DNA from: Ancylobacter novellus DSM 506
GTDB taxonomy: Bacteria > Pseudomonadota > Alphaproteobacteria > Rhizobiales > Xanthobacteraceae
Assembly (NCBI RefSeq): GCF_000092925.1
Contig: NC_014217.1
Span: 2,108,001 to 2,172,000, forward strand
Reading direction: 5' to 3'
Length of the DNA: 64,000 nucleotides
How positions within the stretch are numbered: the first letter of the stretch is position 1; the number at the start of each line of letters is the position of its first letter. The translations under genes and the position numbers were made by a program. Of this stretch, positions 41,681-52,778 are shown piece by piece. The notes under the pieces were generated by a model. That model saw only the letters and a list, made by a program, of their open reading frames with translations. It was not told the DNA's origin and did not search any database.

Positions 41681-41695
41681 GCAACTATCGTGCCA
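41681..41695 (-). promoter_or_regulatory. Sigma-54 (-24/-12) promoter of the importer operon
   Basis: Minus strand reads TGGCACGATAGTTGC, a full match to TGGCACGRNNNTTGC with the required ten bases between GG and GC. It lies 45 bases upstream of the binding-protein ATG. Confidence 0.85.
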
Positions 41696-41812
41696 TCCCG
41701 GTCGACATAATTCTGGCAAGTTGAAAATGCCTCATCACGCCGGCATCCATCAAAACATCCGAATAACAAACCGTCCACTTTTAATCATGGAATCACGATC
41801 TACTGATTTATA

Positions 41813-41832
41813 CTTTCTCATCAGCGAAACAT
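41813..41832. promoter_or_regulatory. Candidate enhancer site, importer operon (proximal)
   Basis: CTTTCTC-N6-GAAACAT, about 118 bases upstream of the -24 element. It shares the TCTC-N6-GARA core with the sites at 46625, 49642, 49664 and 52681. Confidence 0.45.
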
Positions 41833-41901
41833 GATCTCACCCATGAGGCCGGATGAAACACCCGGACACGAGGTGGACAAGTTGCATGGATGAGCCGGCC
41901 G

Positions 41902-41921
41902 GTGTCGCACAGGCGCGACAC
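41902..41921. promoter_or_regulatory. Candidate enhancer site, importer operon (perfect dyad)
   Basis: GTGTCGC-N6-GCGACAC, a perfect inverted repeat in the 310-base gap between the activator gene and the importer operon, about 207 bases above the -24 element. Confidence 0.6.
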
Positions 41922-41946
41922 GCCCGTCGCTGGTCGCAGCCTCGTC

Positions 41947-43974
41947 TCAATGGACGATCTGGTAGCGCTGGAGCTTGCGGTAGAGGGTGGCGCGGCTGAG
42001 CTGGAGCGCGACCGCCGCGGCCTTCACATTGCCGCCGCAGCGCGCCAGCGTGGCGAGGATGGCGTCGCGCTCCGCCGCGGCGATGGCGTGACGGGCACTG
42101 CCGGCCGCCTCGACTTCCTCGCCCGGCGCCACCGTGCCCGGAACCGCCGTGCCCGGAGCCGCCGCGACAGGTCCCGGCGCAACGGCGGCGGGCATGGAGG
42201 GCGCGCGGGCGCCGGTGCGGATGGCAATGTCGCGCGCCGTCAGCTCGGCGCCTTCGCACACATGCACGGCGCGGTTCAGCACATGGCGCAGCTCGCGGAC
42301 ATTGCCCGGCCAGTCATGGTTCATCAGCATCGCCAGCGCGTCCGGCGCAAGGCTCAGGCGCCGGCCGTCGGCGAGGCTGGCAAAGACCGCCTCGATCAGC
42401 TCGCGCCGGTCGGTCCTCTCGCGCAGGGCGGGAATGTCGATCACCGCGCCGGCGAGCCGATAATAGAGGTCCTGCCGGAACAGGCCGCGCGCGATCTGCG
42501 CCTCGAGGTTCTGGTTGGTCGCCGCGATCACCTGCACGTCGATGCGGCGCGGCTTGCCGGAACCGAGCGGCGTGACCTCCCCGGATTCGAGCACATGCAG
42601 CAGGCGCGTCTGCTGGCTGACCGGCATGTCGCCGATCTCGTCGAGGAACAGCGTGCCGCCATCGGCCTCCACCAGCCGCCCGGGGCTGCCCTCGCGGCGC
42701 GCGCCGGTGAAGGCGCCGCTGCCATAGCCGAAAAGCTCGCTGTCGATCAGCGTGTCCGGCACGGAGGCGCAGTTGAAGGCGACGAAGGGCGCCGCCCGGC
42801 GCGGGCTTTCCTCGTGGACGGCACGGGCGAAGGCGTCCTTGCCGACGCCGGTCTCGCCGAGCAGCAGGATCGGCAGCGAGCCGCCGAGCACGCGGCGCAC
42901 GAAGCGGACATTGGTCGCCATGCGCGGATCGCTGCCGGCGCAGTCGTCCAGCGTCAGGAGCGAGGTCGAAGGGCGGACCGGTGCGGGAGCCGGGGTCGGG
43001 CGGGGCCGGGCAGCCGGTTCCGCCGACGCCGCGGGGCGTGAACCGGCCGAGAGCACCTCGGTCGGCCCGCTCAGCGAGACGGTGATGGCGTCGCCGCCCT
43101 TCTGCAAATGCAGTGTCAGCTCGGCGCCGCCGAGGCGGGCGAGGTCGATGAGGCGATGGTCGCGCTCGAACACCGCCCACAGGCTGCGCACGCGGGCGAG
43201 CTGCACCCGGTCGCTCAGCATCGCGCGCGCCGCGTGGTTGAGGCCGACGAGTTGGAAGTCATCGTCGACGGCGATCAGCCCGTGATCGACCGGCCCGGTC
43301 GCGAATTTGAGTATGTAGTTGCGACGGAAGGCCTGGCGGAACATCCGCTCGCCGATGCGGTCGGCCAGCCCCGAGGTGAGGCCGAGCACCACCTTCAGCG
43401 TCTCGCGCTGGAGCTCGGGATTGCGGATCGAGATGTTGATGGCGCCGATCAGCTCGTCGTCGGGGCTGAACAGCGGCGCGCTGGCGCAGGACAGCGCCGA
43501 GAAGTCGTAGAAGAAGTGGTCGTTGGTGTAGACGCCGACCGGCAGGCGCTCCACGAGGCAGGTTCCGATGGCGTTGGTTCCGGCGGAACGCTCGGCCCAC
43601 GCCGTGCCCGGCCGCTCCACGTCGCTATAGAATTCGGGATTGTAGTTGGCGCGCTCGCTGATGATGTAGCCGTCGACATTGCCGAGGCTGATGCTGAAGC
43701 CGGACAGCGAGACCGCCCCGAAGATGGCATCCATCTCCGGCCGGGCGAAATGGATCAGCTCGTCATTGGCCTGCCGCTGCTGCTTCAGCTCGGCATCGCT
43801 CACCGCCTCGATGCGGAACTTGGCACCGGGATCGAAGCGATAGCCTTCCATGCAGCGACGCCACGATGCCGCCATCGCGTCGGCTGCGCGCGGCGCGCGG
43901 AAATCGCCGGGGGTCACGACCAGCTGGTTGGCGCTGGAAACGATCCGGGAAACGTGGCTGCGCAGGTCCAGCAT
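41947..43974 (-). CDS. Sigma-54-dependent activator, AcoR-like
   Basis: 675 residues. N-terminal GAF-type sensor region (about 50-280, with AGTNAIGTCLVERLPV), then the AAA+ domain: Walker A LLGETGVGKDAFARAVHE, the sigma-54 contact loop GAFTGARREGSPG, Walker B GGTLFLDEIGDMP, sensor region DWPGNVRELRHVL. A Pro/Ala linker leads to a Fis-type helix-turn-helix (GGNVKAAAVALQLSRATLYRKLQRYQI). There is no receiver domain, so it likely binds a small effector directly. ATG 43974 has CGGAG upstream. A terminator separates it from the oxidase gene before it. Best candidate regulator of all five -24/-12 promoters nearby. Confidence 0.95.
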   Translation of the reverse strand: MLDLRSHVSRIVSSANQLVVTPGDFRAPRAADAMAASWRRCMEGYRFDPGAKFRIEAVSDAELKQQRQANDELIHFARPEMDAIFGAVSLSGFSISLGNVDGYIISERANYNPEFYSDVERPGTAWAERSAGTNAIGTCLVERLPVGVYTNDHFFYDFSALSCASAPLFSPDDELIGAINISIRNPELQRETLKVVLGLTSGLADRIGERMFRQAFRRNYILKFATGPVDHGLIAVDDDFQLVGLNHAARAMLSDRVQLARVRSLWAVFERDHRLIDLARLGGAELTLHLQKGGDAITVSLSGPTEVLSAGSRPAASAEPAARPRPTPAPAPVRPSTSLLTLDDCAGSDPRMATNVRFVRRVLGGSLPILLLGETGVGKDAFARAVHEESPRRAAPFVAFNCASVPDTLIDSELFGYGSGAFTGARREGSPGRLVEADGGTLFLDEIGDMPVSQQTRLLHVLESGEVTPLGSGKPRRIDVQVIAATNQNLEAQIARGLFRQDLYYRLAGAVIDIPALRERTDRRELIEAVFASLADGRRLSLAPDALAMLMNHDWPGNVRELRHVLNRAVHVCEGAELTARDIAIRTGARAPSMPAAVAPGPVAAAPGTAVPGTVAPGEEVEAAGSARHAIAAAERDAILATLARCGGNVKAAAVALQLSRATLYRKLQRYQIVH

Positions 43975-52506: not shown

Positions 52507-52544
52507 GGCACTACTTTCGGAAACGAAAGGGATGCCTTGGGACC

Positions 52545-52559
52545 GCAAGAGCCATGCCA
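52545..52559 (-). promoter_or_regulatory. Sigma-54 promoter of the aldehyde dehydrogenase gene
   Basis: Minus strand reads TGGCATGGCTCTTGC, one mismatch in the -24 box, correct spacing, 39 bases before the ATG. Confidence 0.65.
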
Positions 52560-52680
52560 TGGGCTTTCCTCTCGCGGGCGCGCGGGCTTAAGCGCCCGCG
52601 GGACCGGCGGAAGACGGCGCCAATGCTGGATTTCCCTCCCCGCCTCTCGCGCTCCTCTCGTCATCGTCCGGCCGCGCGGC

Positions 52681-52700
52681 GCGTCTCACATCAGCGACAA
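52681..52700. promoter_or_regulatory. Candidate enhancer site shared by aldehyde dehydrogenase and flavin reductase genes
   Basis: GCGTCTC-N6-GCGACAA. It lies 64 bases from the -24 of the reductase and about 120 from that of the dehydrogenase. A perfect palindrome GCGACAATTGTCGC (52694-52707) overlaps its right half, and TTGTCGC-N9-GCGAGAC follows about two turns on. Confidence 0.5.
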
Positions 52701-52763
52701 TTGTCGCAGCGCTTCTGCGAGACGCCCCGCCCACGCGCCGTTGATTTTGCTGGAATCAGGGCG

Positions 52764-52778
52764 TGGCACGCGATTTGC
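52764..52778 (+). promoter_or_regulatory. Sigma-54 promoter of the flavin reductase gene
   Basis: TGGCACGCGATTTGC, matching both core boxes with correct spacing, 37 bases before the ATG. Confidence 0.8.

Follow-up and report, generated by a model that had tools for sequence, protein, structure and literature searches.

The DNA of Ancylobacter novellus DSM 506 examined here (contig NC_014217.1, positions 2,108,001 to 2,172,000) is a stretch of 64,000 nucleotides, hereafter the window, whose own numbering is used throughout. It carries a block of catabolic genes in which five sigma-54 promoters had been proposed around the gene of an AcoR-like activator, and the question it raises is whether these genes answer to a single regulator. 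The original prediction joined an ABC importer, a luciferase-like monooxygenase (LLM), FAD oxidases, an MFS transporter, an aldehyde dehydrogenase (ALDH) and a flavin reductase (FR) in one regulon. Our analysis suggests that the block is indeed probably one regulon under its local enhancer-binding protein (EBP), made up of sigma-54 promoters and of a palindrome-governed promoter of non-sigma-54 type before the genes of two oxidoreductases of the GMC and DAO families. The idea is well supported for P1, P2, P4 and P5, the promoters before the substrate-binding protein (SBP) of the importer, the LLM, the ALDH and the FR, where the site, and in most cases a palindrome upstream of it, is found again in other genera and with the genes arranged differently. 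It did not hold for the MFS gene, whose site P3 is unconserved, or for the GMC and DAO FAD oxidases, which here do not stand behind a sigma-54 box. Control of catabolic genes from sigma-54 promoters by a local EBP is already a known kind of arrangement. The sites, palindromes, conservation and gene families described below rest on sequence; binding, sigma use, inducer and chemistry we infer.

All five -24/-12 elements were found at the coordinates and on the strands proposed for them (Table 1), each with GG-N10-GC spacing. The exact pattern TGGCAY-N5-TTGC has five matches in the window, where 0.24 would be expected, and none of 100 shuffles contained 5 or more. With one mismatch allowed the window has 11 matches against 7.5 expected, a count reached by 12 shuffles; these relaxed searches are close to background and were dropped, and therefore only the exact pattern was treated as informative. 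A search of the whole genome, which had been suggested as a check for clustering, returned 15 matches (4 for the reversed control), of which 5 are clustered in the 11.1-kb block. By hand calculation, a stretch of this size in the genome of 4,765,023 bases would hold 15 x 11098/4765023 = 0.035 by chance. The narrower TGGCAC-N5-TTGC occurs nine times in the genome, four of them in the block, against four in the control. Gaps to the start codons, claimed to be 37-72 bases, came out close to this at 44, 50, 72, 38 and 36 bases for P1 to P5, as measured to the chosen starts (that of P2 was counted by hand to the GTG at 46498). The longest mechanical frames of the SBP, LLM and ALDH begin inside or next to their site, and those of the MFS transporter and FR begin upstream of the site and read through it.

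Among the ten genomic sites outside the block, four have a downstream frame starting within or after the site according to a crude frame caller, while the remaining six fall within a called frame. The four genes include a GntR-type regulator and a nitrogen-starvation response protein (TIGR04044, above cut-off), as well as a 2-aminoethylphosphonate-binding-like protein and a PotA-like ATPase, both below cut-offs. Elsewhere in the genome, about 530 bases beyond an EBP domain (G000:C1:4546313-4547359, L009), there is a sigma-54-type site and then the 2-aminoethylphosphonate-binding-like protein, and this EBP with its nearby site is a possible second local sigma-54 regulon.

Conservation of the sites was followed in a genome collection scanned with the LLM, which gave 99 relatives, 79 distinct loci being kept. 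Twenty of these, at 69-97% LLM identity (L066-L085), carry all or most of the block. Their sources are Ancylobacter, 'Bosea sp. 117', Methylopila, Hansschlegelia, Mesorhizobium, Mangrovicella, Acidisoma, a Rhodospirillaceae and other Xanthobacteraceae, and together with the window they make up the 21 loci counted here. The Ancylobacter loci are close kin and so not independent, and L077 is incomplete at its end. Gene order varies between clades, yet the site stays before the leading genes, defined as those with no block gene on the same strand within 130 bases. TGGCAY-N5-TTGC stands before the leading LLM in 21/21 loci, the leading SBP in 18/19, the leading FR in 14/14 and the leading ALDH in 6/7. 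The single SBP miss is in L083, where the match start has a site 77 bases ahead of it that probably escaped the count through extrapolation of the start; L083 is also the ALDH exception, its only ALDH being a 38% relative. Across the 21 loci no site was found before operon-internal genes, before the 17 leading EBP genes or with the reversed control, and none stands before the less related LLM genes (0/70, with 70 of 94 such loci given). The comparison with related genomes thus bore out P1, P2, P4 and P5, which keep their place ahead of the same genes across genera and rearranged loci, and failed for P3 and the MFS gene.

A second element, the palindrome TCTCA-N4-TGAGA, is likely to be the enhancer of these promoters, judging by the statistics given below. 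The genome holds only two exact copies, at 49645 and 49667, and degenerate copies lie upstream of the other sites (Table 1), with a further one, of two mismatches, 134 bases from P1. The copy before the LLM is 78 or 79 bases from the -24 element in all 11 Ancylobacter-clade loci searched for it, always with one mismatch, and the copy common to P4 and P5 is likewise found in L066, L068, L069, L072 and L085. Ten distant loci (L075-L084) had not been used to find the palindrome, and upstream of their sites the half-site TCTCA with a spacer of 4 ranks first among 1024, in 11/28 regions at no more than one mismatch. As this set holds near-duplicates (three Mesorhizobium), a seven-locus set was also run; TCTCA was again first, in 9/19 regions. 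Within two mismatches, the palindrome lies upstream of the site in 25/28 distant regions against 1.7 in shuffles, in 35/39 of the Ancylobacter clade against 1.8 (the 39 include the window's five) and in 5/5 of the window against 0.25. The sites for these counts were hand-picked before block genes, with L081:1332, L081:11296 and L083:5671 excluded, and L071:12 was dropped from the two-mismatch count since its upstream region is incomplete. When the palindrome halves were searched as words in the literature, only unrelated papers were returned.

The two exact palindromes stand before GMC-DAO, where a sigma-54 matrix run on the intergenic stretch of eight loci, four loci with DAO but no GMC being excluded, found no box in seven; the best score was 3.8, against at least 15.3 for known sites. 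In the eighth, L170, a high-scoring site stands before a RidA-like gene. Instead, two tandem palindromes, each with at most one mismatch, precede GMC-DAO in all 13 Ancylobacter-clade loci examined (the window, L066-L074, L085, L170 and L171, with DAO alone in L068, L069, L072 and L085). They are 22 bases apart (21 in L066) and are followed at 23-24 bases by TATACTT, which is exact in 12/13 loci and reads TATACGT in L170. Shuffled tails gave a mean of 0.0055 such hits against 11/12 observed; the TATACTT of L074 was read separately because of an earlier TATAC in that locus. A search of 49500-49900 brought up no consensus sigma-70 promoter. Taking TATACT as a -10 element would put the palindrome centres near -43.5 and -65.5, as is usual for class II activators. 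The exact tandem pair is present at a single genomic position in 11/30 congeners, all with the LLM, and in 0/15 congeners that lack the LLM; of the four other LLM holders, L067 and L069 have the pair with one mismatch, and G308 and G310, of divergent arrangement, are without it. In several distant loci DAO lies within the operon behind the FR's sigma-54 site, and the GMC of L083 has its own sigma-54 site, so the operator recurs and the promoter type differs. We therefore regard GMC-DAO as carrying a putative sixth promoter of the block (P6), which would be of non-sigma-54 type.

The regulator encoded in the block has the domains of an EBP. As had been claimed, it carries a GAFTGA loop (at residue 420), and it consists of a GAF domain (30.5 bits, cut-off 22.4), an AAA+ sigma-54 interaction domain and a Fis-type helix-turn-helix (HTH). 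Across the block EBPs compared, GAFTGA is intact in every row and the recognition helix reads (S/G)RATLYRK. The genome has a single sigma-54 gene and ten EBP-domain matches above cut-off, six of them strong, of which the block's EBP is the only one in the window. Two other candidate binders of the palindrome were set aside. An HxlR regulator (54221-54619) was set aside because, of the stretches searched, only those of the window and L066 contain it (the FR side of L070, L071 and L074 lying outside them), and a second EBP because three loci with the tandem pair, namely the window, L066 and L170, show just one EBP per stretch.

AcoR-type EBPs combine GAF, AAA+ with GAFTGA and a Fis-type HTH and have local catabolic targets, and the block EBP is like them in both respects. 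The label 'AcoR-like' therefore fits the architecture. It does not extend to the target genes: AcoR is presented in passages of PMC3162934 as the acetoin regulator, whereas no acetoin genes are among those typed in the block, which has several separate promoters, one of them apparently non-sigma-54. A precedent for an EBP serving both sigma-54 and sigma-70 is FleQ of Pseudomonas, reported in PMC6120874 to use RpoN for flagellar genes and sigma-70 for pel/psl genes; it has a REC-type N-terminus, binds c-di-GMP and governs a wide regulon (PMC6120874, same passages), while the block EBP is GAF-type and apparently a local catabolic regulator. The EBP paralogues TyrR, DhaR and HupR act at sigma-70 promoters with an altered GAFTGA, as stated in PMC3162934; the GAFTGA of the block EBP is intact. 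It is only as a tentative reading, possible rather than probable, that we suggest one GAFTGA-bearing, GAF-type activator and one operator put to two uses, as sigma-54 enhancer and as a class II-like site activating a sigma-70-type GMC-DAO promoter. On this same tentative footing, the enhancer use would cover four or five sigma-54 promoters, and the Ancylobacter lineage may have moved part of the regulon to the housekeeping sigma while keeping the activator.

Several results weigh against a single regulon of this design. Leading DAO, GMC and ATPase genes mostly lack the site (1/6, 1/8 and 0/1), and among six leading MFS genes only that of the window has one, with none at two further MFS genes; among the sites used, P3 also scores lowest on the matrix. 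Across the genomes of 12 relatives the pattern has 12-36 matches and the reversed control 3-20. An isolated site is therefore weak evidence, and the argument rests on conserved placing and not on the motif by itself. In the distant set the TCTCA half-site also gives 9/28 at spacer 2, and when only the five window regions are counted it (3/5) is below TCGCG (4/5) and equal to CGCGC. No palindrome within two mismatches was found at 7/67 sites: one site around 7.7 kb in each of L069, L072 and L085, the SBP site of L073, and the FR sites of L081, L082 and L084. A sigma-54 site lies farther upstream in the same direction in L068, L069, L072, L085 and L170 and might also serve DAO or GMC-DAO, which speaks against a separate non-sigma-54 promoter; the window has no such site upstream of GMC. 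Finally, none of ten proteins scanned reached an NCBIfam equivalog cut-off among the matches listed; the only models passed were PotA and a FAD-linked oxidoreductase subfamily.

Other explanations were weighed, and the first of them we consider rather unlikely: the EBP would control sigma-54 promoters only, and at the GMC-DAO palindromes it would be a repressor of a sigma-70 promoter or a distant enhancer. NtrC at glnAp1 is a precedent for an EBP repressing a sigma-70 promoter, GAFTGA EBPs normally work on sigma-54, the palindrome nearest TATACTT overlies the -35 region, where a bound protein could block polymerase, and the upstream sigma-54 sites in 5/13 loci could permit read-through. Against this reading, the lack of a consensus sigma-70 promoter in 49500-49900 would make the promoter weak unaided and suits activation better, and the presence of DAO or GMC in sigma-54 operons of some other clades suggests co-induction; the window itself has no sigma-54 site that could read into GMC. 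That a regulator encoded elsewhere binds the GMC-DAO palindromes, their likeness to the sigma-54 enhancers being inherited or coincidental, we judge unlikely. Intact-GAFTGA EBPs are rare at sigma-70 promoters and class II spacing is typical of ordinary activators. However, the genome's only exact palindromes are the two at GMC-DAO, the exact pair is confined to LLM holders among the congeners, and the neighbouring HxlR regulator shows the narrow occurrence given above.

Chance matches or functionless remnants could account for P3 by itself, and relaxed searches are uninformative here; as an explanation of the sites together, chance is so improbable as to be nearly negligible, given that their position before the same genes is kept through changes of gene order across genera. 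It is also improbable, in our view, that several pathways (importer, monooxygenase, oxidases) have accumulated in the block, with one inducer in common and separate substrates. MFS and GMC come and go among loci, and an enlarged version of the block in A. moscoviensis and A. mangrovi, described below, could be read this way. Yet SBP-ATP-permease, EBP, LLM-ALO, ALDH, DAO and FR stay associated on plasmids and in several distant genera, an association limited by L080, which lacks SBP, permease and FR, and by the divergent ALDH of L083.

Under the preferred reading of one regulon, the local EBP would bind the TCTCA-N4-TGAGA palindromes and drive P1 for the importer, P2 and P5 for a two-component monooxygenase (the LLM at P2, the FR at P5) together with the ALO FAD oxidase, P4 for the ALDH and, probably too in this genome, P3 for the MFS transporter. 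The tandem palindromes beside TATACTT would govern the GMC-DAO operon via a non-sigma-54 promoter. DAO and GMC/ALO may oxidise amine and alcohol groups, FMNH2 from the FR would feed oxygenation by the LLM, and the ALDH would oxidise the aldehyde produced. The nearest solved relative of the LLM is 3,6-diketocamphane 1,6-monooxygenase (4uwm, 152 bits; the next scores 88), and the best 120 of its 2594 relatives in a protein search bear generic names. The diketocamphane enzyme, of the type II Baeyer-Villiger kind, uses FMN reduced by a separate enzyme, as described in PMC4631483. The family seems to fit this type, with a luciferase-family oxygenase like it in sequence and a separate FR gene, both behind putative sigma-54 sites, but unlike in the camphor system, no camphor-type genes were recognised in the block. 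The importer resembles the polyamine importers PotABCD and PotFGHI in that its ATPase passes the PotA subfamily cut-off and its SBP is related to PotD/PotF, while it differs in its fused permease halves and in an SBP far below the equivalog cut-offs (YdcS 65/725, PotD 60/582 and PotF 56/636 bits). From these families, we put the chances at about even that the block imports and oxidises a nitrogen-containing compound. Homarine and alkaloid pathways were considered as sources of the substrate and rejected, with no match in the open-licence literature. No description of the gene set as a whole was found in that literature, a scope that makes the absence weak, and the main text of a proteomics study of Starkeya (Ancylobacter) novella (PMC3797975) does not mention luciferase, monooxygenase, polyamine or sigma.

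Read from right to left, the block runs from the FR through P5, P4, the ALDH, the MFS gene with P3, GMC-DAO, P2, LLM-ALO and the activator to P1 and the importer (Table 1). ALO lies downstream of the LLM within the operon in 21/21 loci.

Table 1. Genes, promoter elements and palindromes of the block, in window positions
Feature	Position	Strand	Remark
ABC permease, two fused permease halves	37690..39423	-	PF00528, two stretches
ABC ATPase, PotA type	39416..40495	-	TIGR01187, above cut-off
ABC substrate-binding protein (SBP), PotD/PotF-like	40533..41636	-	PF13416; PDB relatives mostly polyamine-binding proteins
P1 TGGCACGATAGTTGC	41681..41695	-	-24/-12 element before ABC binding-protein operon
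Palindrome, 1 mismatch	41835..41848		153 bases upstream of P1
Enhancer-binding protein (EBP, activator)	41947..43974	-	GAF, AAA+ with GAFTGA, Fis-type HTH
ALO-type FAD oxidase, directly after LLM	44101..45369	-	PF01565, PF04030
Luciferase-like monooxygenase (LLM)	45389..46498	-	PF00296; best PDB relative 4uwm, 152 bits
P2 TGGCACGGGCCTTGC	46549..46563	-	-24/-12 element before LLM-ALO
Palindrome, 1 mismatch	46628..46641		78 bases upstream of P2
DAO-family FAD oxidoreductase	46679..47953	-	PF01266
GMC oxidoreductase	47957..49540	-	PF00732, PF05199
P6, TATACTT, -10-like element toward GMC-DAO	49614..49620	-	23-24 bases from palindrome in 12/13 loci
Perfect palindrome	49645..49658		99 bases upstream of P3; on the opposite strand, centre ~31 bases upstream of TATACTT (P6)
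Perfect palindrome, second	49667..49680		22 bases from palindrome 49645..49658
P3 TGGCACACATCTTGC	49744..49758	+	-24/-12 element before MFS; seen in this genome only
MFS transporter	49831..51006	+	PF07690
Aldehyde dehydrogenase (ALDH)	51019..52506	-	PF00171
P4 TGGCATGGCTCTTGC	52545..52559	-	-24/-12 element before ALDH
Degenerate palindrome, 2 mismatches	52684..52697		common to divergent P4 and P5
P5 TGGCACGCGATTTGC	52764..52778	+	-24/-12 element before flavin reductase
Flavin reductase (FR)	52815..53345	+	PF01613

On the right, an SDR, the HxlR regulator and a RidA-family gene adjoin the block at 53399-55027; close relatives of the SDR and HxlR stand next to the block only in L066, within the same scope of stretches as above. 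Close by (55564-58649) follow a phage-type integrase (PF00589, DUF6538) and a frame that we take, by eye, to be phage-like. A tRNA-Val call at 37511-37586 is probably false, because it sits within a coding frame.

In A. moscoviensis and A. mangrovi (L165-L168) the block is enlarged to about 30 kb and includes two EBPs, two LLMs, two importers and further DAO and GMC genes, with six sigma-54-type sites in either species; the A. moscoviensis version has a RidA-like gene as well. In L068 (by eye) and L170 a RidA-like frame follows a site, and L069, L072 and L085 have a sigma-54-type site at the same place as the RidA-linked site of L068. The RidA-like proteins scanned scored 50-52 bits to TIGR00004, below cut-off. 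RidA proteins act on reactive enamines and imines, which fits the amine oxidation proposed for DAO. The module is also found, with its sites, on two plasmids, pB of A. polymorphus (L185, typed non-mobilizable) and pAvCG78b of Agrobacterium vitis (L184, typed conjugative); on the latter a fourth sigma-54-type site stands before a second ABC transporter set. Nineteen plasmid records had an LLM match, four of them above 60% identity, and two of these four were opened.

Taken at the strengths given above, the block is a compact catabolic module common to several alphaproteobacterial genera, whose promoters and operators would be predictable from sequence in new genomes. Plasmids carry it too, and it points to a pathway yet to be discovered. 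Should the EBP activate GMC-DAO from a sigma-70-dependent promoter, the locus and its counterparts in other clades would also offer a natural setting in which to compare how a single EBP serves two classes of RNA polymerase.

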